DNA from: a virus
IMG/VR virus record: IMGVR_UViG_3300030419_003362
Coordinates: 1-46,994 of that record
Length of the DNA stretch: 46,994 nt
Reading direction: 5' to 3' (one strand)
Below are positions 11,837-33,884 of this stretch, piece by piece; the stretch's first letter is position 1, and every line of letters starts with the position of its first letter. The notes below the pieces were generated by a model. That model was not told where the DNA came from. It saw nothing but the letters and a program-made list of their open reading frames with translations, and made no database searches. Made by a program: the position numbers and the translations under genes.

Positions 11837-12510
11837 TGAGGTATTTGATCATAAGAACATGTTTAAGGGACGACTATCTTGCTCGATTGTGTTATGAGTC
11901 TTTTTTGTTAGTAGAAAAAAGCACAACGAGTATAATATTTTCGTGTGACGAGGGAGAACGCAAAGATCATAAAGATTTGTATAAATGGATAATGGAACCT
12001 ACTAGACCTGTAATACAGTTTAGACCTTTTTGTGATAATTATTTAGGGGGTTCTGGAGTCAAAAATCTTGTGAATAATTTTAGAGAGTTGAATCAGATTA
12101 AAGACGATGATCAAGTTATATTTATGGATTCTGATGTTGTGTTGTACGAGGATCCTTTTGTTTTATTTTCTGGTAAAGACATTGCACATGCAGGACTGGA
12201 TGGTAATAGTTACTTCACGAAGAACGATGAATTTTCGTTAAGACATATCAGCGGACAACTTCAATATTTTAGCGGTAAATTTATGAGAAAGGTTGCTAAT
12301 CTTCCTCCCGATAGAGTAGAAAGACATATACAAGACCTTAACGCCAAGGCAAATGTTGCTGATGATACCTTTATGTCTTATTTAAGTAGTATTTGGAATG
12401 AAAATACCGCAGGTGTTCCACTAGATCACAAATACTGGAAACATCATAAGTTTTATGAATATGAACCAAGAACAGATTGGAAAGATATAGTCAATGAAAC
12501 TTTATTATGA
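11833..12510 (+). CDS. GT-A-like glycosyltransferase in the replication operon
   Basis: 225 aa. The segment VIFMDSDVVLYEDPF places a DxD metal/nucleotide-sugar motif at Asp99-Ser100-Asp101, followed by a region with HAGLDGN and a C-terminal basic/aromatic part. This is the arrangement of small GT-A fold nucleotide-diphospho-sugar transferases; acceptor and donor cannot be read. It lies 8 kb away from the main glycan locus, coupled by ATGA to the SNase gene and overlapping the DNA methyltransferase by 17 bases. Because its neighbours act on DNA, glucosylation of modified DNA is a possibility, but no family similarity to T4 alpha/beta-glucosyltransferase is visible. Confidence 0.72.
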   Translation: MMRYLIIRTCLRDDYLARLCYESFLLVEKSTTSIIFSCDEGERKDHKDLYKWIMEPTRPVIQFRPFCDNYLGGSGVKNLVNNFRELNQIKDDDQVIFMDSDVVLYEDPFVLFSGKDIAHAGLDGNSYFTKNDEFSLRHISGQLQYFSGKFMRKVANLPPDRVERHIQDLNAKANVADDTFMSYLSSIWNENTAGVPLDHKYWKHHKFYEYEPRTDWKDIVNETLL

Positions 12511-14074
12511 ACGCAATGATTATGTAATTGATTCTGATGTCAATTGCAATTTTGAAGATCTATTAGAAATGACACCCGACGAATTCCGTGAGTGGGTAAT
12601 TGATATGCGTAAGGTAGTCAAGAACGCATGGGACACATATGGGTGTCCTCCACGGACTGGTAAGGATGAGCAGGACATTGTAGATTCATTCAACAAGATT
12701 GCAGAGTATCCTGTACATCAGTTCACCCACACAGACGAACTGTCTGATATTGATGATGATGTGATTATCAATAAATCTAGAATGGGTGTCGAGGTTGATC
12801 AGTGGTTCTCAAACATGTTCAAGACAAGAATCAACTATACCGAAAAGGATAATGGATATTCCATATATGATCTGGTTGCTGATGACAATAGGTTAGATCA
12901 GGTAGTCAAGGGTGCAATGCGCCATCTTAGGCGAGATTCTTTTTATACACATGCACTGTCTGCAATAAAGCACAGCACAAAGTATGCTGTGGTAGATGTT
13001 GCTAGTGGTGATGAATGGATGAAAACCTTCTTTTCCAATCCTGCGATTTTCGCAGGACATGATTTTCTTCTCGAACAAATCAAGATCCGCGAGGGTGCTA
13101 ATTCTGGATACTTCCAACTCGAACAGGATGATGTTCTTCAACTTACCAGAGAACAAGTAGAGAAGTGGAAAGACAAGATGTCATATAGACATCATTCAAC
13201 TTTCGATATTAATGATATGCCAGACGATAAAGTATATGCAATTCGTATATATAAGACGGGAAGAAAAGTCTTCCCTGCTGGATTCAAATCATTTAGGATC
13301 GGGTATATTCAACCTGCTGTGAATTTCCCCCCAATGACTGCGAAATATTTGTATGAACGATTTACCGAAGACATCAAAGATCAAGAACGAATTGTTATCT
13401 ATGATCCATCAAGTGGGTGGGGTGGTCGTATACTTGGTGCTATGGGTTGTCGGGATGATCGCAGCATTCATTATGTTGGGACTGATCCAAATCCTGATAA
13501 TTTTTATGGCGATACTCCTGGCAGTAAGTATGAGTCTCTCGCTACTTTCTACAATACCAAAACTTATAGGGGAAATCCATTCTTTTCCAGAACGAATACT
13601 TTCCACCAATTTATGGAAGGATCTGAAGAAGTCGGTAAACATCCCGAGTTCCAACAGTATAAAGGAAATGTAGATCTTGTATTTACCTCACCCCCATATT
13701 TCAACAGAGAGGCTTATAGTGAAGACGAAAACCAATCGTATAAGAAGTATGGATCATCATATGAATCATGGCGAGATGGATTCTTGCTACCAACATTGGA
13801 GACATGCTATGAGTGGTTAAAGCCAAATAGATATCTGCTGTGGAATGTTGCAGATGTATTAGTTAGTGGAAAATATCTACCAATTGAGCAAGACAGTATT
13901 GACATTTTGGAATCATTGGGTATGATATACAAATACACATTGAAGATGGGACTAGAAGGAATGCCTGGTCAGAATCGAGTTGATGAAGATGGCATTCCTA
14001 AATGTAAAAACTTTTGTAAAGTAAATGAAAAATATTTGAAGTATGAACCAGTGTTCGTATTTTTCAAGCCTTGA
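12494..14074 (+). CDS. DNA methyltransferase (amino-methyltransferase, N6A or N4C)
   Basis: 526 aa. S-adenosylmethionine motif I-like DPSSGWGGRILG starts at Asp304, and the catalytic motif IV TSPPYF is at residues 398-403, the order seen in beta/gamma-type modification methylases; the TSPPY form is common in N4-cytosine and some N6-adenine enzymes. The first 290 residues are a large N-terminal region without motifs I recognise, possibly target recognition. No restriction endonuclease is adjacent, so it is a solitary phage methylase, likely used for protection from host restriction or for regulation. Confidence 0.85.
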   Translation: MKLYYERNDYVIDSDVNCNFEDLLEMTPDEFREWVIDMRKVVKNAWDTYGCPPRTGKDEQDIVDSFNKIAEYPVHQFTHTDELSDIDDDVIINKSRMGVEVDQWFSNMFKTRINYTEKDNGYSIYDLVADDNRLDQVVKGAMRHLRRDSFYTHALSAIKHSTKYAVVDVASGDEWMKTFFSNPAIFAGHDFLLEQIKIREGANSGYFQLEQDDVLQLTREQVEKWKDKMSYRHHSTFDINDMPDDKVYAIRIYKTGRKVFPAGFKSFRIGYIQPAVNFPPMTAKYLYERFTEDIKDQERIVIYDPSSGWGGRILGAMGCRDDRSIHYVGTDPNPDNFYGDTPGSKYESLATFYNTKTYRGNPFFSRTNTFHQFMEGSEEVGKHPEFQQYKGNVDLVFTSPPYFNREAYSEDENQSYKKYGSSYESWRDGFLLPTLETCYEWLKPNRYLLWNVADVLVSGKYLPIEQDSIDILESLGMIYKYTLKMGLEGMPGQNRVDEDGIPKCKNFCKVNEKYLKYEPVFVFFKP

Positions 14075-14085
14075 AAGGAAATAGT

Positions 14086-15528
14086 ATGGCTAAAAAGAAG
14101 AAGACAAGTGAATTGACTTACATTATGAACCCCCGGTGTGGGTGGTGTAAAAAGGCAGATCCCGTAGTAGAAGAACTTCGTGCTGCCGGACACGACATTA
14201 CGACACTGGACGTTACGGATCCAGATAACGCCAAGAAGTCTCAGGAACTTCAGGCAAAGTTTAACATCCGTTGCGGTACTCCCCTGTTCCTTGACGCTAA
14301 GACTGGCAATAATGTTTGCGGTATGCGTGGTAAGGAGATTTTGGAGAAGTGGGCAAACGGAGAAGAGATTCCTGCTCCTCCTCCTCGACCGAAGCCACAG
14401 AATGCTCCACAGCAACCGCAACAGCCAGGTCAACCACCAGCGGAACAGTGGCCTAAAACACAGTTCATTAAGTTGGAGTATGTTTGGGTGGATGGAAAGA
14501 AGAACAAGCAACTTCGATCCAAGACTCAGTTTTCTACTCTCACTCTAGAACAGCCTCCTACTCCGGACTATCTCTTGGGTATTCTTCCCGAATCCGGATT
14601 TGATGGTTCGAGTACAAATCAAGCAAGCACAGAAGACAGCGATTGTATCCTCCGACCTGTTAGGGTGTATCCTAACATGCAAGATCGGGGTAGGGATCCT
14701 TCGTTCGTTGTTATGTGTGAAGTATTCGATTCTAACGGGAAACCACACAAGTCTAACACTCGCGCCCAACTTCGACGTACTCTAGAACGAGTTGGTGGTG
14801 CTGATGATATTTGGTTTGCTGTTGAACAGGAATACACCATTACAGAAGCAAGCAGTGATAAACCAATTGGTTGGCCTGACGGCGAACCAAAACCACAGGG
14901 AGATTATTACTGTGGACTTGGTAGCAATAATGTGAAGGGTAGGCGTCTTGCAGAACAACACGCATTCCTTTGTAACAACAGTGGAGTTCTTCTAGATGGA
15001 TTCCATCCTGAAGTCATGCTCTCCCAGTGGGAGTATCAGACTCGTCCTAAGATTGCTCTCCGTGCTGCTGATGATCTTTGGTTCACCCGGTATCTTCTTC
15101 ATAAGACAGCAGAAATGATGGACATGTCTATCAGTTTTGATCCCAAGCCTGTCGAAGGTGATTGGAACGGATCCGGCGCACACATTAACTTCTCTACCAA
15201 GGTGATGAGAGAGAAGTCCAGTATGGATTATCTCAATCTTATGTGTGCAACTCTCAAGGACACACACGAAGAAGCGATTTCAGTATATGGTCCCGGTAAT
15301 GATCGTAGACTGAGTGGTAAGCACGAAACCTCTGCAATTGATATTTTCAGTTGGGGAGAATCTGACAGGACAGCATCGATCCGCATTCCTTTGAAGACTG
15401 CCAATAATAATGGTATGGGTCATATCGAAGATAGACGACCTGCTGCTAATGTTGATCCATATGAGGCATTTAATTACCTCACTTCTCAAATCGTTTCGAT
15501 CTCTCAAGAAGTTCTCGCCGCTACATAA
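14086..15528 (+). CDS. Thioredoxin/glutaredoxin-like domain fused to type II glutamine synthetase
   Basis: 480 aa fusion. Residues about 10-92 form a thioredoxin-fold domain with the redox motif Cys18-Gly-Trp-Cys21 and a cis-proline at Thr65-Pro66. Residues about 94-122 are a Pro/Gln-rich linker. Residues about 125-480 are a GSII-type (eukaryote-like) glutamine synthetase: GFDGSSTNQ at 171-179, WFAVEQEY with metal ligands Glu247/Glu249, PEVMLSQWEYQ with Glu309/Glu316, GSGAHINFST with His366, RRLSGKHET at 407-415, DRTASIRIP with Arg428, and IEDRRPAANVDPY with Glu448. All expected active-site residues seem present, so it should make glutamine from glutamate, ammonia and ATP. I start at ATG 14086 (AAAGGA upstream) rather than TTG 14071. 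Confidence 0.93.
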   Translation: MAKKKKTSELTYIMNPRCGWCKKADPVVEELRAAGHDITTLDVTDPDNAKKSQELQAKFNIRCGTPLFLDAKTGNNVCGMRGKEILEKWANGEEIPAPPPRPKPQNAPQQPQQPGQPPAEQWPKTQFIKLEYVWVDGKKNKQLRSKTQFSTLTLEQPPTPDYLLGILPESGFDGSSTNQASTEDSDCILRPVRVYPNMQDRGRDPSFVVMCEVFDSNGKPHKSNTRAQLRRTLERVGGADDIWFAVEQEYTITEASSDKPIGWPDGEPKPQGDYYCGLGSNNVKGRRLAEQHAFLCNNSGVLLDGFHPEVMLSQWEYQTRPKIALRAADDLWFTRYLLHKTAEMMDMSISFDPKPVEGDWNGSGAHINFSTKVMREKSSMDYLNLMCATLKDTHEEAISVYGPGNDRRLSGKHETSAIDIFSWGESDRTASIRIPLKTANNNGMGHIEDRRPAANVDPYEAFNYLTSQIVSISQEVLAAT

Positions 15529-15553: not shown

Positions 15554-16303
15554 GTGCCTAAAAGAAATTCAAAAAAACTACTTGAACGTGCATACGGAAA
15601 AGAACCCGAATTCACTGCACTTGATATTAGTTCGGATGAATATGATTGGAATCTAGCAAAGGCTTACTCTTGGTATAGAACCAATTCTAATACAAGGGAA
15701 GAAAAGACCTGGACACTGGATTATATGAAAGAAAAGGGATTCTCGAAAGATGATATGTCTTATGTAAAATCCCTACCAGTGAAATCTTTCTCGCACAGAG
15801 GAAGATACTTCCGGCTTATTAGCAGAGGTGCTGAACTTCCAGCACAAAAATCCGAAGAGTTGGATGCATTTCTTTCTTCTTCTATCAAGGAGGGTAAGAA
15901 GAAGAAAGAAACTGCTCCACCTAGAAAGAATGTTCAGGATTATATCCGTGAACAGGTTGAGGAGTATCTCGGCGATCTTGAAAGCAAGATGGATGATATT
16001 ACAGCAAAACTTACAAAGAAAGAGAAGGTTGAATTTTCTATTCTTTCTTGGCTTAAAGCAAATGAAGTAAAATCAATACAGGCTAAACGTATTGCAGAAT
16101 ACTGGAAACCACTTGCTACTGAAATCTCAAAGGCAATAAATAAAGAGGATCCTCAATTGATTGAAGGATATTCTTTCATGGGTAGGGTTGCTTTGAAGCG
16201 TCTTCACAAAACACTCTTGGAATGGATCGCGGTCTGTGATCAATATGCTGTAGACGTTAAGCCTATTAGAAAAAAGAGAAGAAAGAAGAATGCCTCTAGA
16301 TAA
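15554..16303 (+). CDS. Hypothetical lysine-rich protein
   Basis: 249 aa, starting at GTG 15554 with AAAGGA at 15543-15548. The N-terminal half has Trp/Tyr-rich helices (WNLAKAYSWYRT), followed by a Lys/Pro-rich linker (about 113-128), a coiled-coil-like stretch (about 130-160) and a very basic C-terminus (KPIRKKRRKK). The last 14 bases overlap the next gene. I do not recognise the family. The basic tail and placement between the glutamine synthetase and rnh suggest nucleic-acid contact, but that is inference. Confidence 0.7.
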   Translation: MPKRNSKKLLERAYGKEPEFTALDISSDEYDWNLAKAYSWYRTNSNTREEKTWTLDYMKEKGFSKDDMSYVKSLPVKSFSHRGRYFRLISRGAELPAQKSEELDAFLSSSIKEGKKKKETAPPRKNVQDYIREQVEEYLGDLESKMDDITAKLTKKEKVEFSILSWLKANEVKSIQAKRIAEYWKPLATEISKAINKEDPQLIEGYSFMGRVALKRLHKTLLEWIAVCDQYAVDVKPIRKKRRKKNASR

Positions 16304-16625: not shown

Positions 16626-17459
16626 ATTATTTTATTGGACAACAATCAGTTGATAATTGCCAGTTTGTTTCAATCAATGAAGCAAGAGGCAGAACTAAGT
16701 GAAGATTTGGTAAGACATCTTATACTAAACACATACAGGATGTACAGAACTAAATTTAAGTCCAAGTACGGAGAAATCGTTATCTGTAGTGATGGTGGTA
16801 GTACTTGGCGTAAGGAAATATTTCCCCTATACAAAGCAAACAGGAAAAAGAGTCAAGAGAAGTCCAGTGTAGATTGGACAAAGATGCATGATATTATGAA
16901 TGTAATTCGTGGCGAAATGCAAGAGAATTTTCCGTATAGAAATGTACAGATTCGTGGTATAGAAGCAGATGATATTATTGCTACTCTTGCGAAGCATTAC
17001 CACACACAAGAAAAGATTATGATTGTATCTAATGATAAGGATTTCCAGCAATTACAGAAATACCCCAACGTAGAACAATATAGTCCTCTTAAGAAGCGAC
17101 TATTATCCTGTTCAAACCCTGAACAGTTTATAGTTGAACACATCATCAAAGGTGATACATCCGATGGAATTCCAAATATTCTATCCGATGATGATTCGTT
17201 TGTTGACGAGAACAAGAGACAAAAGCCATGTGGGGAAAAGCGTATTGCTCAAATAAAGGAGGAGTTGGACGCATGGTGTGATACAGATAATTGGAAGAGA
17301 AATAAATCGTTAATTGACTTTTCTAGTATACCAGAAGATGTAGAATCTGTTATACTAGATGAATACAGAAAAGAACCCAAAGGTAATAGGGGAAAGATCC
17401 TTAATTACTTTATTGACAAAAAACTTAAACTACTAACAAACCATATAGAGGAATTTTGA
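16626..17459 (+). CDS. rnh: RNase H / 5'-3' exonuclease (FEN-1 family), likely ATT start
   Basis: T4 RNase H homologue that removes RNA primers and flap 5' ends on the lagging strand. With the start at ATT 16626 it is 277 aa and begins MILLDNNQLII, placing the first catalytic Asp at residue 5. Other FEN acids are visible: Asp56, EADD at 113-116, NDKDF with Asp137/Asp139, and GDTSD with Asp177/Asp180. RHLILNTYRMY and NYFIDKKLKLLTNHIEEF match T4 in layout. AGGAG at 16613-16617 lies eight bases before the ATT; the next in-frame TTG at 16635 is 17 bases from it and would cut off the first beta strand. No ATG or GTG is available in frame. Confidence 0.92.
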   Translation: MILLDNNQLIIASLFQSMKQEAELSEDLVRHLILNTYRMYRTKFKSKYGEIVICSDGGSTWRKEIFPLYKANRKKSQEKSSVDWTKMHDIMNVIRGEMQENFPYRNVQIRGIEADDIIATLAKHYHTQEKIMIVSNDKDFQQLQKYPNVEQYSPLKKRLLSCSNPEQFIVEHIIKGDTSDGIPNILSDDDSFVDENKRQKPCGEKRIAQIKEELDAWCDTDNWKRNKSLIDFSSIPEDVESVILDEYRKEPKGNRGKILNYFIDKKLKLLTNHIEEF

Positions 17460-17679: not shown

Positions 17680-18372
17680 ATGACAACAGCAACAAAAATG
17701 ACACTTTCTAGAACTACGTTGGATGTTTTGAAGAACTATGCGTCGATCAATTCCAACATTCTTGTCCGACCTGGTAACAAGATTAGCACCATTGCTCCCG
17801 TCAAGAATGTTATGGCAGAAGCAGTAGTAGAGGAGACTTTCGACACAGAGTTTGGTATCTGGGATCTGAATAAGTTTCTTGGAACGATTTCTCTTTTCGA
17901 TAAACCCGAATTTGAATTCGAGGATAAGTTCGTTAGAATTACAAACGGCAACAGTAAGTCAGAAGTTGTGTATTATTACTCTGCTCCGAATCTTCTCACC
18001 ACGGTAAACAATAAGATTAATATGCCGGAAAGTGTCGTTAGTTTTGAACTGAAAGAAACAGATCTACAGGAACTACAAAAGGCAGCATCCGTTCTGCAAC
18101 TTCCTGATCTTGTGGTTCGATCAGGTGATGGTAAGATTGAACTTGCGGTACTTGACAAGGCAGACACTAGCACCAACGTGTATTCTATTGATGTTGGTGA
18201 TCTTACTGATGAGTCTGACTTCTCTTTCTACTTCAAGGTTGATAACATGAAGATGCTATCTGGTGACTATGATGTGGATATTAGTGAGAAGGTGGTGAGT
18301 CAATTCTCCCATAAGACAGAGGACATTATGTATTGGGTTGCGTTGGAGTCGGATTCTACCTTTACTCGATGA
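17680..18372 (+). CDS. 45: DNA polymerase sliding clamp gp45
   Basis: Trimeric processivity clamp for gp43 and co-activator of gp55-dependent late transcription. 230 aa (T4 228). Typical sequence elements are LKNYASINSNI near residues 15-25, IWDLNKFLGTISLF (about 61-74), NMKMLSGDYDV (about 189-199) and the ending WVALESDSTF near the C-terminus, which parallels VVALEADSTH in T4. A CAAGGAG ribosome site precedes the ATG. The clamp loader genes follow at once. Confidence 0.97.
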   Translation: MTTATKMTLSRTTLDVLKNYASINSNILVRPGNKISTIAPVKNVMAEAVVEETFDTEFGIWDLNKFLGTISLFDKPEFEFEDKFVRITNGNSKSEVVYYYSAPNLLTTVNNKINMPESVVSFELKETDLQELQKAASVLQLPDLVVRSGDGKIELAVLDKADTSTNVYSIDVGDLTDESDFSFYFKVDNMKMLSGDYDVDISEKVVSQFSHKTEDIMYWVALESDSTFTR

Positions 18373-18388
18373 GTGAAAGATTTATATT

Positions 18389-19327
18389 ATGACTGAAGAA
18401 TATCTTTGGGTTGAAAAATACAGACCCCAGAGAATCGAAGATTGTATTTTGCCCGAATCCATCACCGAGACGTTTGAGGATATGGTGAAGGCAGGAGAGT
18501 CCCAGAATCTCTTGTTGTCTGGTACTGCGGGGTGTGGTAAAACCACAATCGCTAAAGCGTTGTGTAATGAACTTGATACTGATTATTTGGTAATCAACTG
18601 TTCAGAGGATGGAAACATTGATACTCTTAGGACCAAGATAAGGAACTTTGCAAGTACGGTTTCTATCACCGGAAATAAGAAGGTGGTTATCCTTGACGAA
18701 TTTGATTATTCAAATGCTCAATCAACACAACCGGCTTTGCGTGGTTTTATTGAAGAGTTCTCTAAGAACTGTAGGTTTATTCTTACTTGTAACTTTAAGA
18801 ACCGGATCATTGAACCCCTACATTCTCGGTGTACTTGTATCAATTTTAGTATTCCAAAGAACGAGAAGCCTGCACTTGCAATCCGATTTATGGAACGGGT
18901 GAAGTTCATTCTTGATTCTGAGGCTGTCAAGTACGATGAGAAGGTTCTTGCGGAACTGATCACCAAACACTTTCCTGATTTCAGAAGGATAATCAATGAA
19001 CTTCAACGGTATTCCGTTTCGGGTGAAATTGATACAGGAATTTTAACTCAAATTGGTGAGATACATATCAAGGATCTCATGAAATGCATGAAGGAGAAAG
19101 ATTTTACTTCGTGTAGGAAATGGGTGGTTGAAAACCTAGACAATGCACCAACGGAGTTGTTTAGGAAAATTTATGATGGGTTGTATGTGTATATTAATCC
19201 ATCTTCAATTCCACAGGCAGTATTGGTGCTTGCGGAATATCAGTACAAGTCTGCGTTTGTGGCAGATCAAGAAATTAATTTGGTAGCATGTATTGTGGAA
19301 CTTATGATGGGATGTGAATTCAAATGA
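18389..19327 (+). CDS. 44: Clamp loader large subunit gp44 (AAA+ ATPase)
   Basis: ATPase subunit of the gp44/62 clamp loader. 312 aa (T4 319). VEKYRPQRIEDCILP opens the protein (residues 8-22); Walker A GTAGCGKT is at 45-52, Walker B ILDEFD at 101-106 and the arginine-finger SRC at 146-148, as in RFC-type loaders. The stop overlaps the start of the co-chaperonin gene by four bases. Confidence 0.97.
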   Translation: MTEEYLWVEKYRPQRIEDCILPESITETFEDMVKAGESQNLLLSGTAGCGKTTIAKALCNELDTDYLVINCSEDGNIDTLRTKIRNFASTVSITGNKKVVILDEFDYSNAQSTQPALRGFIEEFSKNCRFILTCNFKNRIIEPLHSRCTCINFSIPKNEKPALAIRFMERVKFILDSEAVKYDEKVLAELITKHFPDFRRIINELQRYSVSGEIDTGILTQIGEIHIKDLMKCMKEKDFTSCRKWVVENLDNAPTELFRKIYDGLYVYINPSSIPQAVLVLAEYQYKSAFVADQEINLVACIVELMMGCEFK

Positions 19328-19617
19328 GCAAATTTAAAGCAGAAGGCGATCACTTGATCTTGGAAAAGATTGATTATGATGAGGAACAGGTAACAGAGGG
19401 TGGAATCATTTATAAGCCTAAGGATGTGCTTGATTCTTCTTTCTCAGAAGCAAAAATTATTTCAATGGGTAGAGGTCTTCCTATCTCGAATGGTGATATT
19501 CCTGAAGTAGATTATGCAGAGGGGGATGTTGTTCTTTATGACGCCCGATCTCGCATTGGAATGCATAAGGAATTCGATGTCATTCGACGGGAACATGTAA
19601 TTGCTGTGGTGGGTTGA
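19324..19617 (+). CDS. GroES-type co-chaperonin (gp31-like function)
   Basis: 97 aa, the size of bacterial GroES (about 97) rather than T4 gp31 (111). It has the Cpn10 layout: GDHLILEKI (residues 8-16), TEGGIIYKP (about 24-32) at the mobile loop position, AKIISMGRG (about 43-51), YAEGDVVLYDA (about 64-74) and the C-terminal REHVIAVVG strand. Such proteins cap host GroEL to help fold gp23. It is wedged between genes 44 and 62 with four-base overlaps on each side, an uncommon position. The mobile loop is short here but keeps the GGI(I/V) contact pattern. Confidence 0.85.
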   Translation: MSKFKAEGDHLILEKIDYDEEQVTEGGIIYKPKDVLDSSFSEAKIISMGRGLPISNGDIPEVDYAEGDVVLYDARSRIGMHKEFDVIRREHVIAVVG

Positions 19618-20000
19618 TGAAATTAACTGATTATCTAACTGCGATTAATCATAGCAAGGATTCTCTCATGGACGGAGACGACCTTGCAGAGAAGCAATAT
19701 GCACCTTTTGTTGTCAATAGGTGTTTGTCCTATTTCCCGGACACGATACTTCATGCTAATCATATGAACTTTCATCATGTGATTGATAAGAAGTGTCAGT
19801 TTGATTATTTTGTCGGTGCAGTACGCAAGAGAAAACGATTCAGCAAATGGCTAAAGAATGAAACTGAAGAAGATCTTGAGATCGTGAAGAAGCACTATGG
19901 ATATTCAAACGCCAGGGCACGGGAAGTTATGGATATGTTGAGTCCTGAACAAATCACAGAGATAAAGAACAGGTATGGAGAATGCCCTGAAATGAAATAA
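19617..20000 (+). CDS. 62: Clamp loader small subunit gp62
   Basis: Non-ATPase partner of gp44, 127 aa, shorter than T4 gp62 (187) but like the marine T4-like version. Visible family features are FVVNRCLSYFPDT (about residues 29-41), HANHMN, QFDYFVGAVRKRKRFSKW (about 61-78) and a C-terminal helix with the REVMDML pattern. There are tandem ATG codons at 19614 and 19617; either could be used, and I take the second because it leaves the standard MKLTDYL opening. Confidence 0.92.
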   Translation: MKLTDYLTAINHSKDSLMDGDDLAEKQYAPFVVNRCLSYFPDTILHANHMNFHHVIDKKCQFDYFVGAVRKRKRFSKWLKNETEEDLEIVKKHYGYSNARAREVMDMLSPEQITEIKNRYGECPEMK

Positions 20001-20002
20001 AA

Positions 20003-20010
20003 TATAAATA
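20003..20010 (+). promoter_or_regulatory. T4-type late promoter box (TATAAATA) upstream of regA
   Basis: Exact TATAAATA right after the gene 62 stop codon, 36 bases before the regA ATG. Late-type transcription from here would feed into the glycan locus. The short AT-rich gap makes a chance match possible. Confidence 0.5.
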
Positions 20011-20023
20011 CTTATATCAGACA

Positions 20024-20032
20024 TGATATAAT
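20024..20032 (+). promoter_or_regulatory. Extended -10 (TGATATAAT) upstream of regA
   Basis: TG-A-TATAAT with a perfect -10 hexamer at 20027-20032. There is no good -35 hexamer at the usual distance. The ATG is at 20047, so the leader would be about 8 bases if used. Alternatively the same bases are only part of the AT-rich RegA leader. Confidence 0.35.
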
Positions 20033-20046
20033 GAAAGAGAAGTATT

Positions 20047-20451
20047 ATGACAAATGAGGACATTTTTAGAGGATTGGGTGTTGAAGTAACCTTGAAAGAA
20101 AAAGATGATTTTTTGAAGGTCCGTGAAACGCTTACCCGAATCGGGATCTCGTCTAGAAAAGAAAATAAACTATACCAGTCATGCCATATCTTGCATAAGC
20201 GAGGAAGGTATGCTATAATGCATTTCAAAGAGTTATTTTCTCTTGATGGATTGGATACAGATATTTCCCAGAATGATATTGCAAGAAGAAATACAATAGC
20301 AAGTCTTTTGGAAGAGTGGGGGTTACTCGAAATAATTGATGAAGAAACCGATGAGGATCAATACGCCAGTCTAGGACAAATAAAGATCATTCCTTTCAAG
20401 GAAAAAAATGATTGGGAGTTGATACCTAAATATCATATAGGAAACAGTTAA
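20047..20451 (+). CDS. regA: Translational repressor RegA
   Basis: RNA-binding repressor that blocks ribosome loading on many early phage messages. 134 aa (T4 122), with an 11-residue N-terminal extension before the conserved VEVTLKEKDDFLKV segment. Strong T4 matches follow: RETLTRIGIS, LYQSCHILHKRG, HFKELFSLDG, SLLEEWGLLEII and the ending LIPKYHIGN. It is the last conserved gene before the glycan locus; in T4 gene 43 comes next, but here 43 is about 23 kb downstream. Confidence 0.96.
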   Translation: MTNEDIFRGLGVEVTLKEKDDFLKVRETLTRIGISSRKENKLYQSCHILHKRGRYAIMHFKELFSLDGLDTDISQNDIARRNTIASLLEEWGLLEIIDEETDEDQYASLGQIKIIPFKEKNDWELIPKYHIGNS

Positions 20452-20464
20452 GAAAGATTATTTT

Positions 20465-21118
20465 ATGATGCAAACCCTAGTGATTAGTTTCTATAGTGAC
20501 ATAGAAGACAACACCTATTATAGCGATCATGGTAAAAGACTTCAGAGTGAGTGTGAGTCTTTTGGTATGCCATATATAATCGAACATAAAGAAAGTCTTG
20601 GTACTTATAGAGATAATTGTCTAAGTAAACCAAGGTATATCTTAGAAAAATTAGAAGAGTATAATAGGCCTTTGTTGTGGTTGGATGTAGATAGTAGAGT
20701 ACATAAACCACTTGATATATTTGATACATTTGGTGATGATGTCGATATAGCAGTAGCATCTTCTAATGGACAGTTGTCTGGTGTAAAAGCATCTCCTATC
20801 TTCTTTAGGAACAACGATAAGGCAAAATCCGTATTGTATACTTGGATGAGTGCTATTGATAAAATCAAAGAAGATAATCAACCTGTGTTTGATCATGAAC
20901 CGTTCTTTGGTGTGTTACATGCACTTGCTTCTTCGATGAATATTGGACTGGTAGGCCCTGAATTTTGTATATGGCCTGGTTACACCAACGAACACACATG
21001 TATTACTATGGGACTCACTGATTCCGAAACTAAGAAAGAAAATCTTAGAAAGATGGGACTCGGCGAAGACGCAATTGAATTTCAATCGGTTGGAAATAAA
21101 TATGACATGGATAGTTAA
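20465..21118 (+). CDS. GT-A-type glycosyltransferase with DxD motif
   Basis: 217 aa, first gene of the glycan locus. The segment PLLWLDVDSRVHKPLD places a DxD motif at Asp74-Val-Asp76 (counting from the first of two ATG codons), and the following VASSNGQLSG and PIFFRNN segments fit the nucleotide-diphospho-sugar transferase fold (PF03407-like layout). Donor and acceptor are unknown. The ribosome site is weak. Its 3' end overlaps the next gene by 17 bases if that one starts at 21102. Confidence 0.75.
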   Translation: MMQTLVISFYSDIEDNTYYSDHGKRLQSECESFGMPYIIEHKESLGTYRDNCLSKPRYILEKLEEYNRPLLWLDVDSRVHKPLDIFDTFGDDVDIAVASSNGQLSGVKASPIFFRNNDKAKSVLYTWMSAIDKIKEDNQPVFDHEPFFGVLHALASSMNIGLVGPEFCIWPGYTNEHTCITMGLTDSETKKENLRKMGLGEDAIEFQSVGNKYDMDS

Positions 21119-22046
21119 GGGAACCCCTTTTAGTAGTCATCAATCATCGTGTTCAAATCTTAAACCAAGAATGTTTTCTTGGGATGATGATATTGATCTT
21201 GATGTTGAGTTGTGGGTAGATTATGCACTGGAGGAAGGTATTCATGCTCCGCGAGAAAAGAAATATAAGTATGCATGGATATGTGAGTCTCGTTCTATTC
21301 TTCCTTTCCTCTCTCGGCTTTATGAAACAGATGAACACGGACATAAGGTTGTTCGGGGTATAACGCCTACACTACAGTCGATGATAGATTCGTATGATGC
21401 AATTTTTACTTGCGACAAAGAGTTAGTTGCACTCCACGACAAGATTCATTTTTCCTTTGCAGGTAGCACACTACCTTGGACTGTGACAGACGACTTATAC
21501 ACTTTGGATAAATCTAAGTCCTGTTCTTTTGTAGCATCAAATAAACTAATGTGCGTGGGTCATGCTTATAGAAAGTATGTCTATGATTATATTATTAGCA
21601 ACGGTTTGAGTAGTATTGATTCCTACGGCTCAATCACCGGAGAAGATTACTTCGGTAAGTGTGATAGATGCTGGGAGCGTGGTGGTGGAGATGGGTGGAT
21701 GGATAAGTCATCGGCCCTTGTAGATTATAAGTTCTCGATAGTAATGGAAAACGACTTCTATTCTACCTACTATACAGAGAAACTAACAGACTGCTTTTCC
21801 ACGGCAACTGTTCCCATATATCTTGGATGTCCAGATATTGCAGATCACTTTAATATTGATGGTATAATACAAGCAGAAAATCCAGATCACTTGAATCAAA
21901 TTATCAGTCACTTCCATCAGAATAATTCTTGGGATGTAGAATATGCAAGAAGAATAATGGCAGTTAGAGATAATTATAACCGAATTGGGTTTATTCGACA
22001 TCCGGATGATATGCTATATGCTAAAATCATGGAGATGACAAAATGA
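21102..22046 (+). CDS. GT10-type (alpha-1,3-fucosyltransferase-like) glycosyltransferase
   Basis: 314 aa. The GT10 donor-binding signature is clear: a KFSIVMEND strand with Glu216, then YYTEK (Glu226-Lys227) and TVPIYLGCPDI with the family's PxxxG turn, which bind GDP-fucose in known members. An N-terminal region of about 200 aa has the acceptor-side Rossmann half, here containing WICESRS. Start chosen at ATG 21102 (MTWIVKGTPF); an in-frame ATG at 21075 is deeper inside the previous gene. A second GT10 domain is at 22780. The donor could be another 6-deoxy sugar. Confidence 0.83.
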   Translation: MTWIVKGTPFSSHQSSCSNLKPRMFSWDDDIDLDVELWVDYALEEGIHAPREKKYKYAWICESRSILPFLSRLYETDEHGHKVVRGITPTLQSMIDSYDAIFTCDKELVALHDKIHFSFAGSTLPWTVTDDLYTLDKSKSCSFVASNKLMCVGHAYRKYVYDYIISNGLSSIDSYGSITGEDYFGKCDRCWERGGGDGWMDKSSALVDYKFSIVMENDFYSTYYTEKLTDCFSTATVPIYLGCPDIADHFNIDGIIQAENPDHLNQIISHFHQNNSWDVEYARRIMAVRDNYNRIGFIRHPDDMLYAKIMEMTK

Positions 22047-22783
22047 AATATGTTACATTCACTACAAATGGATCTGTTGAGTTGTGTAAAAACTTCATAC
22101 TGAGTGCGGGCAAAGTCGGTATACAGAAAGACCTAATTGTATATTGCTTGGATAAAGAATCCAAAGAACAATTAAGCAATGAGTTTGAGTGTGACGTTCG
22201 CTTGTATGAGTTGGAAGAAATTAAAGATATACACCATGCTTATGGTGAGAATCAATTTCGTCGAATAACAGAAGCAAAGATTGAAATTATAATACAGGCA
22301 TTAGATGAGTTTGATACGTTGGTATATTCTGATTGTGATATTGTCTTTAGAAAAGATCCTACCCCCGTGATAGAATACAATGACAAGGATGGTATTGATA
22401 TCACGTTTGCTTCAGATGAACCATTTATGCATATATGTACTGGGTTTATGCTGATAAAGAATACCGAAAGTGTCCGTAGGTTGTTTGCCAAATATTATGT
22501 GTTGAGTAATCAATATGAGGCACAGGGCAGCAAGGCAATGTATGATCAGGAAATCATAAATTATATTTTGGTTTCGGAATGGACGGAGGATCTAAAAGAT
22601 TTTGCGTATGGAGTGTATCCAACAGACTTCATTAAAAACGGTCATCTTTTCTGGAACGAACCGACAGGTCGGACTAACGAAGAATATGTGATCCATGTAA
22701 ACTATACTGTAGGTAAAGAAAGCAAGATAAATAGATTGAAAGAAGCAAATCTTTGGTATGTTGAAGAAGGTACTACACAATGA
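22043..22783 (+). CDS. Nucleotide-diphospho-sugar transferase family glycosyltransferase
   Basis: 246 aa of the PF03407/GT77-like layout. FDTLVYSDCDIVF gives a DxD motif at Asp97-Cys-Asp99, then CTGFMLIKNT (about residues 133-142), YDQEIINYIL, GVYPTDFIKNGHLFW and HVNYTVGKESKINRLKE (about 218-234), the usual closing His-Asn motif. Soluble, no signal peptide or membrane segment. Coupled on both sides by ATGA overlaps. Related acceptor enzymes extend surface glycans, but specificity cannot be read here. Confidence 0.83.
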   Translation: MKYVTFTTNGSVELCKNFILSAGKVGIQKDLIVYCLDKESKEQLSNEFECDVRLYELEEIKDIHHAYGENQFRRITEAKIEIIIQALDEFDTLVYSDCDIVFRKDPTPVIEYNDKDGIDITFASDEPFMHICTGFMLIKNTESVRRLFAKYYVLSNQYEAQGSKAMYDQEIINYILVSEWTEDLKDFAYGVYPTDFIKNGHLFWNEPTGRTNEEYVIHVNYTVGKESKINRLKEANLWYVEEGTTQ

Positions 22784-24333
22784 CAAAAAAACCAGCATTA
22801 ATTAAACACGGACACTATCTCTTTGAGGATGGTGTATTAGAATTTGATACGGATGTAGAAATTCACTCTTGTCGGTTCGGTCCCAATATGACCAAAATAA
22901 CTAATGAATGGGTTCCAAACTACCCCCACTATCAGGTGTTGTTTGAAAATCCAAATTCATTTAAAGTTTTTATTAATTCTACTGAATCAAAATTGTCACC
23001 AAACAGAGAAAATATTGAAGCAGTGATCGCAAATCATAAACAATATGATTTGATGCTCGTCACTGATCCGGAAATAATTGAACATTGTGACAATGCTATA
23101 ATGTTTCCATATGGAACAACCTGGCTAAATAAAGGACACATTGATCATCCAGATGGGTTGGGTAAATTTGACGAAGACTATTTAAAGCAATTCTGGGACA
23201 ATAAGAAATTTGAAGTGAGTTACCTATGCAGTTCTCACTTCCGACAATTAGACGGATATCAGTTACGAAAATTCTTATGGCTGGAGCGAGAGTGGATTAG
23301 CATTCCGAAGAAGTTTTTGAGTAGTGTCCGTTATCCTGTTCCAGATCTACCCCCTGGTCCAATTGGTGCGAGTATGCTTCTTCCTGAAGATGATAAGAAA
23401 CATCTATTCTACAGTCAGTTCTCGCTTGCTATAGAAAATGCCTCAGTAGATAATTACTTTACTGAAAAACTGATGGATTGCTTCTTGACAAAAACAGTTC
23501 CAATCTACTTTGGGTGTCCCAATATTGGTGATTATTTTAATCTAAAGGGAATGGTGCATCTGGATGGACCGGAACTATCTGCTGCTGTCCAAAAGATAAA
23601 TGCACTTACACCTGAAACATATGAAAAGATGCTTCCCTATATTGAGGAGAATTACCAGAAAGCACTGGAGTATTGTGAAAAAACTTTTGCTGAACGAGTG
23701 AAGGAACAGATTGATATCGCTATGTTTAATAAAAGCAAATATCAGAAACTATTAACTATTGGTGTGTTAACTCTTGAGGAAGAAGAAAGAAAAGCCTATC
23801 TAAATCGACTACTGACTTTTATTAGCCAGAACACTTCTGTAGAGGACAAGTCACGCATAGAAATAATTGTTAACAGCGATGACGGAACAAAATCAGTAGG
23901 ACAAAAAAGAAATGAAGTATTGGATGCTGCTTCCGGAGAGTTTGTTTGTTTTATTGACGATGATGATCTGGTAGATGGGTCCTATGTTAGAACGATCTTA
24001 GACACCATTGAAAACAATGAAGATTTGGATTGCATAGGCTTCAGTGGTATGTACTATGTTGATGGTAAAGAAGTAATGTTATTTAAACATGCAAACGAAT
24101 ATGGTGGTCATTACAAGGATGCGATGGGCGTCCAGCATCGACCTGTTAATCATTTAAATCCCGTGAGAACCGAGTATGCAAGACAGATCCGTTTCCCGGA
24201 GAAGGATTTCGGGGAAGATAGTGACTATTGCGACCGACTTCTGGAGTCAGGTCTGATAAAGAACGAAGTCATTATTAATAAAATTATGTATCATTACCTC
24301 TGGAGCGAAGAGGGTTCGAGGACACATGTATGA
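22780..24333 (+). CDS. Two-domain glycosyltransferase: GT10-like plus GT2
   Basis: 517 aa. Residues about 1-320 are a GT10-type unit: an LAIENAS strand around Glu219, FTEKLMDC, and VPIYFGCPNIGDYFN, closely parallel to the 21102 protein. From about residue 323 a GT2/GT-A unit follows, with the IGVLTLEEEERKAYLNRLL opening, VNSDDGTKSVGQKRN and FIDDDDLVDGSYV with acidic cluster Asp393-396, and a SDYCDRLLESG region. Two complete glycosyltransferase domains in one chain suggest consecutive addition of two sugars to the same acceptor. There is no frame break between the domains. Confidence 0.82.
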   Translation: MTKKPALIKHGHYLFEDGVLEFDTDVEIHSCRFGPNMTKITNEWVPNYPHYQVLFENPNSFKVFINSTESKLSPNRENIEAVIANHKQYDLMLVTDPEIIEHCDNAIMFPYGTTWLNKGHIDHPDGLGKFDEDYLKQFWDNKKFEVSYLCSSHFRQLDGYQLRKFLWLEREWISIPKKFLSSVRYPVPDLPPGPIGASMLLPEDDKKHLFYSQFSLAIENASVDNYFTEKLMDCFLTKTVPIYFGCPNIGDYFNLKGMVHLDGPELSAAVQKINALTPETYEKMLPYIEENYQKALEYCEKTFAERVKEQIDIAMFNKSKYQKLLTIGVLTLEEEERKAYLNRLLTFISQNTSVEDKSRIEIIVNSDDGTKSVGQKRNEVLDAASGEFVCFIDDDDLVDGSYVRTILDTIENNEDLDCIGFSGMYYVDGKEVMLFKHANEYGGHYKDAMGVQHRPVNHLNPVRTEYARQIRFPEKDFGEDSDYCDRLLESGLIKNEVIINKIMYHYLWSEEGSRTHV

Positions 24334-25211
24334 AAAAATTAATTAGTTTTAGTTTGTGGGGGGATGATCCCTTTTACACAGTAGGTGCTGTCAAGAATGC
24401 CAAACTAGCACTGGACATATATCCGGGGTGGGTGTGTCGTTACTATATTGGTCCTTCTGTTCCTGAGAGTGTCGTTCAAGAACTGGATAGTTTCCCTAAC
24501 ACCGAATTAGTTATGATGAATGAGGATGACGGATGGAATGGTATGTTTTGGAGATTCTATCCTATCGTTGATTCTGAAGTTGATGTAATGATTTCTAGGG
24601 ATGTTGATTGCCGACTATCAAAAAGAGAAAAAGAAGCAGTAGATCAGTGGCTATCTACCGGAAAGACGATTCATGTTATGCGAGATCACCCACTTCATTC
24701 CGAACCAATTATGGGTGGAATGTGGGGATGTAGAACTGCGGAGTTATATAACCTTATATGTTCTACGGTTTATAGAGATTCTGATAACTATCCCGATTCT
24801 GTGGAAAAAATTGTGTCTGATTGGCTTAGTCACGAAAAACAAAAAACTAGGGTTGGTGAATACCGTTGTTTGTCAGAATCACAGTATGATTCTCATGGAA
24901 TCGATCAAAAGTTTTTAAGAAATTGTGTGTATTATGCAGCAGTATCTACATCTTCAGATCGACATTTGTTCGTTCATGATTCATTTCCTCTCTACAATCC
25001 ATGGTCCCACAGACTGGACTTTGGAACCCATCCATTTGGAAAAGACTTCTGGGAGAGTAATACAGGATTTCCTACACCGAGAGAAAATTCAGATGATTTT
25101 ATAGGTCAAATTTACTATGCAGATGGAACTTCCAATAAAGAATCTTCAGATTATCTGGAGATGAGACAGGAATTTATATATCAGGATGATAAAAATGAAA
25201 AAAGTGATTAG
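24330..25211 (+). CDS. Glycosyltransferase-like protein, paralogue A
   Basis: 293 aa. N-terminal KKLISFSLWGDDPFYTVGA, WVCRYYIG, GWNGMFWRFYPI and a DxD-type SRDVDCRLSKRE with Asp91 and Asp93; then MRDHPLHSEPIMGGMWGCR and HGIDQKFL. This family recurs in bacterial capsule loci and looks like a GT-A type transferase, but its reaction is not known to me. The following gene is a diverged copy with the same motif positions, so they came from a tandem duplication. Confidence 0.72.
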   Translation: MKKLISFSLWGDDPFYTVGAVKNAKLALDIYPGWVCRYYIGPSVPESVVQELDSFPNTELVMMNEDDGWNGMFWRFYPIVDSEVDVMISRDVDCRLSKREKEAVDQWLSTGKTIHVMRDHPLHSEPIMGGMWGCRTAELYNLICSTVYRDSDNYPDSVEKIVSDWLSHEKQKTRVGEYRCLSESQYDSHGIDQKFLRNCVYYAAVSTSSDRHLFVHDSFPLYNPWSHRLDFGTHPFGKDFWESNTGFPTPRENSDDFIGQIYYADGTSNKESSDYLEMRQEFIYQDDKNEKSD

Positions 25212-26025
25212 TTTTAGTTTATGGGGAAATACCTGTCATTATATTGGTGGCGGAATTGAGAATGCAGATATAGCAAAGATCCTCTGGCCTGATTGGGTGT
25301 GTCGGTATTATGTTTCTCCGAATGTTCCAATAGAAGCAGTGAAGGAATTGAACAAGCGTGATAATGTAGAAGTTATTATGATGGAACAGGACGAGTCGTG
25401 GAATGGAATGTTTTGGAGGTTTTTTGCTGCTGCTGATCCCGATGTGGATGTTGCAATCTTTAGAGACTCAGATTCAAGATTGGACATTAGAGATAAGATA
25501 GCAGTAGAAGAATGGTTGACAAGTGATAAAGATGTTCATATAATACGAGATAATTGTCAACATGGATGGGAAATCTGTGGTGGTGCGTGGGGTGTAAGAA
25601 ATGGCAGACTTAATTACATCAAAGATGACATCGAAAGATTTGATATGAAAGAGAGAATGAACAAACACGGCATAGATCAAATATGGCTTTCTCTTGAGAT
25701 ATATCCAGAGGTAGTGCATGATGCATATGTTCATGATGACTGGTTTCCTAATCAATACACAGAAGAAGTTAAGCACCCACATCCAGTTCCAAGGTTAAGA
25801 GGAGATGGGTGGTGGAAAACAGAGTTTCCAGAATATCATAATGGATTACAATTAGAGAATAACAAGCACTGGTTTAGAAGTGAAACCTGTAAACACCCAG
25901 AATGTTGTCTCCCGTGTCCTGCTTGTGGTGTGTATCATGACAATTACTATACTGGTCAGGTAATGTTGTTAGCACCAGATCATTATTGGAATAAATATCC
26001 AAACTTAAAAGGAGTTTTAGTATGA
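25195..26025 (+). CDS. Glycosyltransferase-like protein, paralogue B, with Cys-rich tail
   Basis: 276 aa from ATG 25195 (AGGA at 25183-25186). It shares with its upstream neighbour the KKVISFSLWG opening, WVCRYYV, SWNGMFWRF, a DxD at Asp91/Asp93 (FRDSDSRL) at exactly the same positions, GGAWGVR and HGIDQIWL. The C-terminus differs: CKHPECCLPCPACGVYH near residues 235-251 offers a possible zinc-binding cluster absent from paralogue A. Probably a transferase of different specificity. The first ATG at 25186 would add only three residues. Confidence 0.72.
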   Translation: MKKVISFSLWGNTCHYIGGGIENADIAKILWPDWVCRYYVSPNVPIEAVKELNKRDNVEVIMMEQDESWNGMFWRFFAAADPDVDVAIFRDSDSRLDIRDKIAVEEWLTSDKDVHIIRDNCQHGWEICGGAWGVRNGRLNYIKDDIERFDMKERMNKHGIDQIWLSLEIYPEVVHDAYVHDDWFPNQYTEEVKHPHPVPRLRGDGWWKTEFPEYHNGLQLENNKHWFRSETCKHPECCLPCPACGVYHDNYYTGQVMLLAPDHYWNKYPNLKGVLV

Positions 26026-26852
26026 ACATTTTAATTACAGGCGGTACTGGGTTTTTAGGAAGACACATAATTGAGCGGTGTATTTCTAAAGGACACAATG
26101 TCGTTAGTCTATCACACTCTGAAATACGAGAGAAAGAAGCACAGTTGAGGTATCCTGATGTTTCTTTTTACTCAGTAGACATTTCTCATAACAAAGCAGT
26201 GCTTGATCGTATTGTAAAGAATCATAACATTGATTATATAATTCACGCGGCAGCAATGAAGTATATTGGTATATGTGAAGACAACCCCACAAGAACAGTA
26301 GAAGTAAATGTGGATGGTAGTAGAAACATTATTGATGTTGCTGTCGATAATGAAGTCAAGAATGTAATTGCGGTTAGCACGGATAAAGCGATCAACCCCA
26401 CAAGTGTTTATGGATCTTCCAAGTTTTTGATGGAAAAGATGATGCTTGAGAACGACTTTTCAGTTATTCAGGGTGTAAACTTTTTCTTCTCGACAGGCAG
26501 TGTTTTGGATCTGTGGGAGGGATTTAGAAGAAAAGAAAAACCAATAGGAATCAATCCTAGCGATACCATTAGATATTTTGTTGGTGCTTCTGATGTTGCC
26601 GATAAGATCTTAGAGAGACTTGACACTCACGGAGAGTATCTGTCATTGGATGAATGTTACAGGGTAAGCCTTCATAATCTAGCAACAGCGTTCTGTGAAT
26701 ATCATGAGTATCATAATACCAAAGAGTATATTCCTGTATCGGCAGAAAAGGACATCGAAGAGGTTCCGGAAAATGTTACCATAATGGAAGCGGATATAGA
26801 TAAATTAAAAGAGATGATTTCTGATTACTATGAGTCTGGAGCATTAGTATGA
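26022..26852 (+). CDS. SDR nucleotide-sugar dehydratase, PseB/CapD-like
   Basis: 276 aa short-chain dehydrogenase/reductase. NAD(P)-binding GGTGFLGRH at residues 7-15, HAAAMKYIG (Lys80), and VSTDKAINPTSVYGSSK with Ser119-Thr-Asp-Lys122 and catalytic Tyr130-xxx-Lys134; this segment is the signature of UDP-GlcNAc 4,6-dehydratases of the PseB/FlaA1/CapD group. It would produce a 4-keto-6-deoxy sugar precursor for the glycosyltransferases. It is somewhat shorter than bacterial PseB (about 330 aa). The C-terminal substrate part keeps TIRYFV, comparable to the TRFW region of that group. Confidence 0.83.
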   Translation: MNILITGGTGFLGRHIIERCISKGHNVVSLSHSEIREKEAQLRYPDVSFYSVDISHNKAVLDRIVKNHNIDYIIHAAAMKYIGICEDNPTRTVEVNVDGSRNIIDVAVDNEVKNVIAVSTDKAINPTSVYGSSKFLMEKMMLENDFSVIQGVNFFFSTGSVLDLWEGFRRKEKPIGINPSDTIRYFVGASDVADKILERLDTHGEYLSLDECYRVSLHNLATAFCEYHEYHNTKEYIPVSAEKDIEEVPENVTIMEADIDKLKEMISDYYESGALV

Positions 26853-27682
26853 AAATTGATAAAGTGATAATGTCGTGTAATGATAACCCATTTTACTCGG
26901 ACTACTGGCCAGCGGTTTCTCGGGTATGGAAAGAGAAATTTGATATTGAACCTGTTTTGGTTTATGTGGGTTCTGATGCTTCTAGGATGTCCACTGAGTA
27001 TGGGACTGTAGTACAACAGGAAAAACTAGAAGACGTTCCAGAACACACACAAGCACAGTGGGCAAGGTACTGGTATACTCAATTTGAACCCGATACTATG
27101 TGGTTACTTTCGGATATTGATATGTTGCCTCTCTCTACTGATTACTTTGTCAGATCTCTAGAGCATATTCCCAGAGAGATAGATCCAGTGATACACTTTA
27201 ATACTAATGCGACATTTGATGTTGCATCAAATAAATGGAATCTTGAAGGCGATTGCATTCAAGGTGGTGTCTGTATGCCTACTTGCTATAGTGCAGCAAC
27301 AGGGAGAATGAGAAAGAAGATTTTAGATCTTGTTCCTTCTTTTGCTGAATCCATTGAAAAGTTAAAATGGCAAGAAAACGATTATCACCACGCACCCGAT
27401 GGTGAGAACGGGGTGCAGCATTGGTACGCAGAGGAAGCATATCAGTCTGTTAAAATGAAAGACTTCATACGAGAGAACCCACATAGATTTTTTAGCATAG
27501 GTAGACTCGGTGGTTTTTGTGGTAATAGATTGGACAGAGGACACTCTGGGATGCCTGAATGGAATCCGGAGTGGTTGAAGGCAGGAGTTTATATGGATTT
27601 CCATATGCCTCGACCTTGGTCTGATTTTGGTGACAGAATTCAAGAAGTTGTTGATTGTTATTTAGAGGGAGTAGCAGTATGA
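26849..27682 (+). CDS. GT-A-like glycosyltransferase, paralogue C
   Basis: 277 aa with MWLLSDIDMLPL giving a DxD at Asp89-Ile-Asp91. A related protein with the same MKIDKV opening is encoded at 28404 (DxD at Asp88/Asp90), one gene away, separated by the FkbM methyltransferase. C-terminal part has histidine/aromatic motifs (YHHAPDGENG, HWYAEE). Specificity is unknown. Stop overlaps the next start by four bases. Confidence 0.72.
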   Translation: MKIDKVIMSCNDNPFYSDYWPAVSRVWKEKFDIEPVLVYVGSDASRMSTEYGTVVQQEKLEDVPEHTQAQWARYWYTQFEPDTMWLLSDIDMLPLSTDYFVRSLEHIPREIDPVIHFNTNATFDVASNKWNLEGDCIQGGVCMPTCYSAATGRMRKKILDLVPSFAESIEKLKWQENDYHHAPDGENGVQHWYAEEAYQSVKMKDFIRENPHRFFSIGRLGGFCGNRLDRGHSGMPEWNPEWLKAGVYMDFHMPRPWSDFGDRIQEVVDCYLEGVAV

Positions 27683-28401: not shown

Positions 28402-28403
28402 TT

Positions 28404-31608: not shown

Positions 31609-31885
31609 TATAGATGAAACAATTGCAAATACCCCAGACAATCCTAGAGACTATCATGCTTCGTCTCCACGAAAGGAAATGATAGAGAAGATTAATAAAT
31701 TATATGACGAGGGAAACCACATAGTATACTGGACAGCGAGAGGCAGTCGCTCCGGGATTGATTGGTTTGATCTAACGAAAGAACAACTGTTACAGTGGGG
31801 TGCAAAGCATCATGAGTTGCGATGCGATAAGCCTTACTATGATGTGTTTTATGATGACAAGACAATGAGAATAGAAGAACTATGA
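31589..31885 (+). CDS. Small HAD-superfamily phosphatase of capsule type
   Basis: 98 aa. HAD motif I VDIDETIANT with Asp7 and Asp9, motif II-like IVYWTARGSRSG (about residues 45-56), the TKEQLLQWG segment (about 62-70) and YDVFYDDKTMRIE with the acidic motif IV (about 84-96). This short capless form is the one found in capsule and LPS loci next to nucleotidyltransferases, where it dephosphorylates a sugar phosphate before activation. It overlaps the upstream gene by 20 bases and the downstream one by four. Confidence 0.82.
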   Translation: MSVIYVDIDETIANTPDNPRDYHASSPRKEMIEKINKLYDEGNHIVYWTARGSRSGIDWFDLTKEQLLQWGAKHHELRCDKPYYDVFYDDKTMRIEEL

Positions 31886-33097: not shown

Positions 33098-33099
33098 TT

Positions 33100-33873: not shown

Positions 33874-33884
33874 AAGGAAATAAA

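Follow-up and report, generated by a model that had tools for sequence, protein, structure and literature searches.

A predicted thioredoxin-fold module tethered to a type II glutamine synthetase domain in a T4-like phage

Results

Gene layout and genomic setting

The window, by which we mean the whole 46,994-nt stretch of IMG/VR record IMGVR_UViG_3300030419_003362 analysed here, is a fragment of a T4-like phage carrying head and tail genes, UvsY, UvsW, a late sigma factor, gp47, gp46, RNase H, the clamp and clamp loader, RegA and DNA polymerase. Within it, one unbroken reading frame runs from an ATG at 14086 to a stop codon at 15528 and joins a small redox-type domain to a glutamine synthetase (GS) domain of type II (GSII) (Table 1). 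The ATG, which the stop codon of the upstream DNA methyltransferase (MTase) gene directly precedes, is kept in the nearest relatives (L002-L004), and translation is less likely to begin at the in-frame TTG at 14071. The linker measures about 32-34 residues, 59% of them Pro or Gln. An AlphaFold2 model of the fusion (23 viral homologs; mean pLDDT 81.7) assigns residues 10-90 to a small alpha/beta domain and puts the start of the GSII domain at about residue 124, after a disordered linker (pLDDT 37 at 101-120). The preliminary description had read the gene as a CGWC redox domain, a Pro/Gln linker and a GSII domain in a single frame. Reading frame, PDB search and structure models agree on this, as does Pfam for the GS part, and the domain assignment is right because the models match GSII and thioredoxins structurally; neither a stop codon nor a frameshift separates the domains, and the layout recurs elsewhere, as described below. 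The GC content of the gene is 46%, against 38% for the entire window.

Table 1. Coordinates of the fusion gene, its parts and its neighbours in the window
Feature	Position	Strand	Remarks
DNA (N4/N6 amino-) methyltransferase, TSPPYF motif, upstream	12494..14074	+	N6_N4_Mtase, E 1.5e-6
Shine-Dalgarno-like AAAGGA	14074..14079	+	about 6 nt upstream of ATG 14086
Fusion gene: thioredoxin-like module, Pro/Gln linker, type II glutamine synthetase	14086..15528	+	480 aa
Predicted thioredoxin-fold module, residues about 9-92	14110..14361	+	Foldseek, VIA, model
CGWC active-site motif, residues 18-21	14137..14148	+	in all 22 fusions (alignment A1) and all 19 rows (alignment A2)
C63-G-T-P66, extra invariant Cys and presumed cis-Pro loop	14272..14283	+	invariant in alignment A2 (19 rows)
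Cys78, fourth invariant Cys of the module	14317..14319	+	invariant in alignment A2 (19 rows)
Pro/Gln-rich linker, residues about 94-125	14365..14460	+	predicted disordered, pLDDT 37 at 101-120
Type II glutamine synthetase domain, residues about 126-480	14461..15525	+	Pfam, PDB, Foldseek, residue alignment
Cys211, aligned to maize Cys92	14716..14718	+	invariant in viral GSII
Cys276, aligned to plant GSII Cys159 (thiol-sensitive in Phaseolus GS)	14911..14913	+	invariant in viral GSII
Downstream gene, phrog_11903	15554..16303	+	
T4-type RNase H / 5'-3' exonuclease	16635..17459	+	
gp45 sliding clamp, gp44 and gp62 clamp loader, GroES-like, RegA: conserved replication block	17680..20451	+	gp45 named from position and conservation across relatives

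The fusion can be classed as an auxiliary metabolic gene, a cellular-type enzyme lying between T4-like gp46 and RNase H with gp45/44/62, and the neighbouring genes in the window and its relatives bear out the original placement in a T4-like replication operon beside a DNA methyltransferase. In most relatives the fusion or GSII gene occupies the same site, in the order gp46-(MTase)-GS-...-RNase H-gp45-gp44; in some it lies near the DNA polymerase gene or elsewhere. Six loci (L078, L081, L082, L087, L088, L091) have the GSII/MTase order swapped with adjacency retained, hinting that the two genes may be preserved as neighbours. This adjacency nevertheless says little about a functional tie, because the MTase is near-core in these phages: it was found in 21 of 24 related records, in several of them distant from GS, and the site of three fusions (L005, L015, L020) is without such a gene. 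No Rfam element, glutamine riboswitch included, was found in the window.

Elsewhere in the window, a GroES-like co-chaperonin gene (19324-19617) lies between gp44 and gp62, a place conserved in relatives. RegA and the tail fibre region are separated by some 18 kb of inserted genes for glycosyltransferases and sugar-nucleotide enzymes (20465-38870; GT10-like, UDP-glucose dehydrogenase, epimerases), and within this cluster sits a NAD synthase gene (32285-33097; PF02540, 2.4e-51) without a glutaminase domain.

The glutamine synthetase domain

The C-terminal part is a type II rather than a type I GS. Profile searches of it gave Gln-synt_C (PF00120) at E 2.4e-21 (76.6 bits, above the Pfam cut-off of 24) and Gln-synt_N (PF03951) at E 2.2e-7 (30.8 bits, just under the cut-off of 33.4), and a PDB search returned type II chains at 1e-75 to 5e-84, among them Streptomyces coelicolor GSII (4bax, 5e-84) and maize GS (2d3a, 2e-83), against 4e-12 for the best other GS chain. 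Foldseek matched the same part to 4bax (E 1e-38, TM by target length 0.91) and to maize GS1a (2d3a, TMt 0.89), and identity to the S. coelicolor enzyme is 43% over 353 columns.

The seven metal, ammonia and nucleotide residues that had been listed as intact, Glu247, Glu249, Glu309, Glu316, His366, Arg428 and Glu448, are identical to maize Glu129, Glu131, Glu192, Glu199, His249, Arg311 and Glu330, with no catalytic acid missing on alignment to maize GS1a; Asp173, Ser176, Asn361, Arg408, Glu414 and Arg433, further residues of these sites, are likewise identical to the maize enzyme. All of them are invariant across the 75-76 viral GSII sequences compared. The phage protein thus has in common with GlnII and the eukaryotic GS1/GS2 enzymes the full catalytic domain, the fold and the examined site residues, and differs from them in its added N-terminal module and linker and in that the viral sequences form a separate branch of the GS tree. 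From the conserved residues we infer that the gene encodes a working type II glutamine synthetase.

The thioredoxin-like module

The N-terminal module is, as judged from its predicted structure, a divergent thioredoxin-fold domain and not a canonical thioredoxin. Modelled alone (pLDDT 92.7), it has its strands and helices in the order E-H-E-H-E-E-H and resembles thioredoxins in Foldseek (E 8e-5) and Bacillus subtilis thioredoxin in VIA (Z 10.3, rmsd 2.2 over 80 residues), the best structural match being the thioredoxin in the B. subtilis ribonucleotide reductase complex. The assignment to thioredoxins therefore stands at the level of fold but not of profile, the Pfam Thioredoxin match (PF00085; E 0.0043, 17.5 bits) falling below the gathering threshold of 23.5 and the active site being other than WCGPC. 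Compared with thioredoxins (PF00085; PHROG 22 'thioredoxin domain'), the module shares the fold and a CxxC motif, but it has CGWC where WCGPC is usual, carries two extra invariant cysteines, and forms a viral family of its own whose only cellular relatives found are from Patescibacteria (29-36% identity). Its four cysteines (the CxxC pair, C63 and C78) are invariant in fused and unfused modules alike; C18-G-W-C21, T65-P66 (with the proline in the presumed cis-Pro position) and a W-A-x-G-E-E module end are conserved, and a few unfused relatives have CGFC or CGYC.

Recurrence and distribution

A search for other proteins of the same architecture found the complete fusion in 29 further IMG/VR contigs (L002-L024, L030, L063-L067; 47-91% identity), 27 of them distinct in the GS domain. 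In every case it lies in the gp46-(MTase)-X-gp45 region of a T4-like phage. Because the full-length layout recurs over this range of divergence, it is neither a chance nor an assembly join. About 45 related distinct viral sequences are stand-alone GSII without the module, and three huge phages of 635-735 kb (LR756501, LR745206, LR756502) also encode a GSII that is 42-46% identical to that of the window and has no redox module. Copy counts are strict: in each fused record the single module is the one joined to GS, GS-only records have no module, and no GS was detected in module-only records. Where GS and module are both present they are therefore covalently joined.

None of the phage isolates has the fusion, the nearest DNA polymerase relatives among isolates being those of Synechococcus T4-like phages (about 52%), and no viral model in BFVD matched the full fusion. 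A cellular origin of the fusion was also considered and rejected: searching 84,980 bacterial and archaeal species with patterns of the module, which would miss a cellular fusion to a different thioredoxin because the patterns were the module's own, yielded no fusion, only nine single-domain proteins of Patescibacteria (29-36% identity) with the module's CxxC ... CGG(V)P ... CG layout.

Evolution and mobility of the module

Both domains are under strong purifying selection: across all fused pairs tested, dN/dS was 0.05-0.14 for the module and 0.07-0.21 for GS. In 98% of fused pairs, conservation is higher in the module than in GS (identities average 69% and 54%). The linker, by contrast, averages 39% identity and varies from 18 to 39 residues among fused proteins, so that the module is best described as a constrained unit on a free tether.

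A quick tree of the GS domain (LG+G4) does not support a single origin of the fusion: the fused state changes six times on it, at least four of these changes being forced by well-supported branches, and unfused genes (L072, L073, L074/L076, L075, L102) are nested among fused ones. The same sister phages keep a module-less GSII at the same locus. Conversely, in a module tree built on few columns the module of the window groups with modules that are not joined to GS (L026, L028, L148; support 100/90). Modules on at least two unrelated tails are 52-69% identical to that of the window. One type of tail is short and helical, in genes beside GMP-reductase-like dehydrogenase and nucleoside deoxyribosyltransferase-like genes; the other is a long Pro-rich part with a coiled-coil-like end, beside gp32 and uvsX; neither matched a named family in the examples scanned. 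Since sister phages have GSII without the module and the module occurs on unrelated tails, it is dispensable for GSII and not specific to GS. We suggest from these sequence relationships that it is a portable redox unit shuffled between phage proteins, and it looks like a viral redoxin family, below the Pfam cut-off in the window protein, that Pro-rich linkers attach to several phage proteins.

Discussion

The fusion described here is a new domain architecture made of known parts. No published description of a thioredoxin-GS fusion was found in the open-access literature, which agrees with the statement in the preliminary description that no such phage protein was known. Viral GS itself has precedents. 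Marine viral type II GS was noted in 2007 in the Global Ocean Sampling survey (Yooseph et al., PMC1821046, Fig. 7C), the part of which that concerns this family reports it as abundant in seawater and does not describe a thioredoxin fusion; its sequences are probably of the same broad group as the phage GSII studied here. A GS gene was reported in putative SAR86 viruses in 2023 (PMC10721903), and GS is also found in giant viruses (PMC9270025).

We suggest that the fusion would act as a working GSII, forming glutamine from glutamate, ammonium and ATP, to which a flexible Pro/Gln linker tethers an N-terminal module, most likely a disulfide reductase of a portable kind. The host thioredoxin system would charge this module, which in turn would hold GS oligomer thiols, above all those of the conserved Cys211 and Cys276, in the reduced state. 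The phage GS might thereby keep its assembly and activity when the infected cell is under redox stress, its glutamine presumably being spent by host amidotransferases on nucleotide and protein synthesis. We prefer, tentatively and at close to an even chance, the reading in which the GSII is functional and the portable redoxin tethered to it probably maintains GS or a nearby client in reduced form; enzymatic activity, a redox effect in cis and the use of the glutamine are the predicted parts of this reading. The earlier proposal that the phage enzyme keeps glutamine flowing for nucleotide synthesis drew no support from gene content: among the related records searched, no phage glutamine user, whether asparagine synthase (Asn_synthase) or class I glutamine amidotransferase (class I GATase), was found.

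Soybean GS1 reportedly has a regulatory disulfide between Cys92 and Cys159, positions that align with Cys211 and Cys276 of the phage protein. In Phaseolus GS, Cys159 is needed for quaternary structure and activity, and thiol reagents inhibit the enzyme (PMC3430217); maize GS1a tolerates replacement of this residue as regards quaternary structure (personal communication in PMC3430217). In tobacco, thioredoxin m acting in trans makes GS more active and more stable (PMC8219043), and older works cited there describe thioredoxin activation of algal and cyanobacterial GS. A redox effect on GS is favoured by the correspondence of Cys276 to the thiol-sensitive plant Cys159 and by the reported activation of GS by thioredoxin elsewhere. 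Common to the phage protein and the thioredoxin-activated enzymes of algae, cyanobacteria and chloroplasts is the idea that thioredoxin sets GS activity; there the thioredoxin acts in trans, whereas here it is part of the same polypeptide and regulation is putative.

The strongest competitor, which we consider rather unlikely, is that the module is a general phage redoxin travelling as a passenger, whose clients are other proteins such as host ribonucleotide reductase or replication enzymes, and that GS is just one among several carriers serving to oligomerise or localise the module. The occurrence of the module on unrelated tails, beside gp32 and uvsX or beside nucleotide-metabolism-like genes, fits this idea, as do the grouping of the window's module with non-GS modules rather than only with GS-fused ones, its greater conservation relative to the GS partner, and its structural match to the thioredoxin of a ribonucleotide reductase complex. 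However, no ribonucleotide reductase was found beside the fusions, and its large subunit went undetected in the fused phage records, which are fragments (one of them of 123 kb), although the enzyme is present in some other records; and the fact that fusion to GS has recurred or been kept across widely diverged proteins suggests that the two partners gain from being joined.

A stronger form of redox coupling, in which the module makes and breaks a disulfide involving conserved GSII cysteines as a cis-encoded switch so that phage nitrogen assimilation follows the redox state of the host, we regard as rather doubtful. Such regulation of GS is known elsewhere only in trans. No target cysteine specific to the fusion was found in the GS domain: unfused viral GSII keeps Cys211, Cys276 and Cys296 just as invariably, and Ser416 (27/28 fused versus 13/48 unfused) is the sole residue separating the two groups. 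A dedicated switch is disfavoured because these cysteines are not fusion-specific, the quaternary structure of maize GS1a tolerates the loss of Cys159 and the module is not GS-specific. Of the 'self-contained redox-gated glutamine synthetase' proposed at the outset, what holds is the fusion of a redox-type domain with a GSII whose catalytic residues are intact; the gating does not follow, given cysteines shared with unfused enzymes and a module that is dispensable and found on other proteins. Redox-gating of the phage GS is a plausible hypothesis.

T7 DNA polymerase uses host thioredoxin as a docking-type partner, and the module could by analogy be a non-redox domain that tethers GS to another phage or host protein. 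The position of the gene within the replication block, the low-complexity linker and the conserved W-A-x-G-E-E module end are in keeping with docking, but modules both fused and unfused keep all four cysteines without exception, which pure docking would not require, and we hold this explanation to be improbable. Still less credible is that the GS domain is an amidoligase acting on another substrate (a polyamine, a peptide or a DNA precursor) in connection with the neighbouring MTase. Phage amidoligases of this superfamily exist (names in BFVD), and the MTase is adjacent in most loci, an adjacency that survives the six order swaps; against this, all examined GS active-site residues are conserved, identity to S. 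coelicolor GSII is 43% over 353 columns, three fusions have no MTase beside them and elsewhere GS lies far from it. An assembly or annotation artefact such as a frameshift join, conceivable for a contig from an uncultured virus, is ruled out for practical purposes by 29 further contigs of the same architecture and by purifying selection on both domains.

The presence of the fusion in about 30 independent viral contigs and in no cellular genome among those searched leads us to posit that nitrogen assimilation may be coupled to redox state by ocean phages. If the preferred reading of a GSII with a tethered redoxin is correct, widespread marine T4-like phages would go beyond borrowing host GS and carry their own enzyme with a built-in redox module, linking nitrogen with reducing power, both of them limiting currencies in infected ocean cells. 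The fusion would then also make thioredoxin regulation of GS, an old question, approachable in a simple recombinant system.

Some further features of the module family deserve mention. Modules on other C-terminal parts were seen at many loci (L026-L029, L031-L040, L139-L200; for example L040:5959-6918, L184:5992-6555 and L027:5774-6301). The Patescibacteria relatives (mostly Nomurabacteria; L124-L132) are 90-aa single-domain proteins with CPHC, CGG(V)P and CG at the same places. Many modules (L006-L010, L012, L014, L016, L017, L167) bear a Cys-rich N-terminal extension such as MACKCGKNKDCKCGK, which possibly binds metal, and the window protein has a lysine-rich start in its place.
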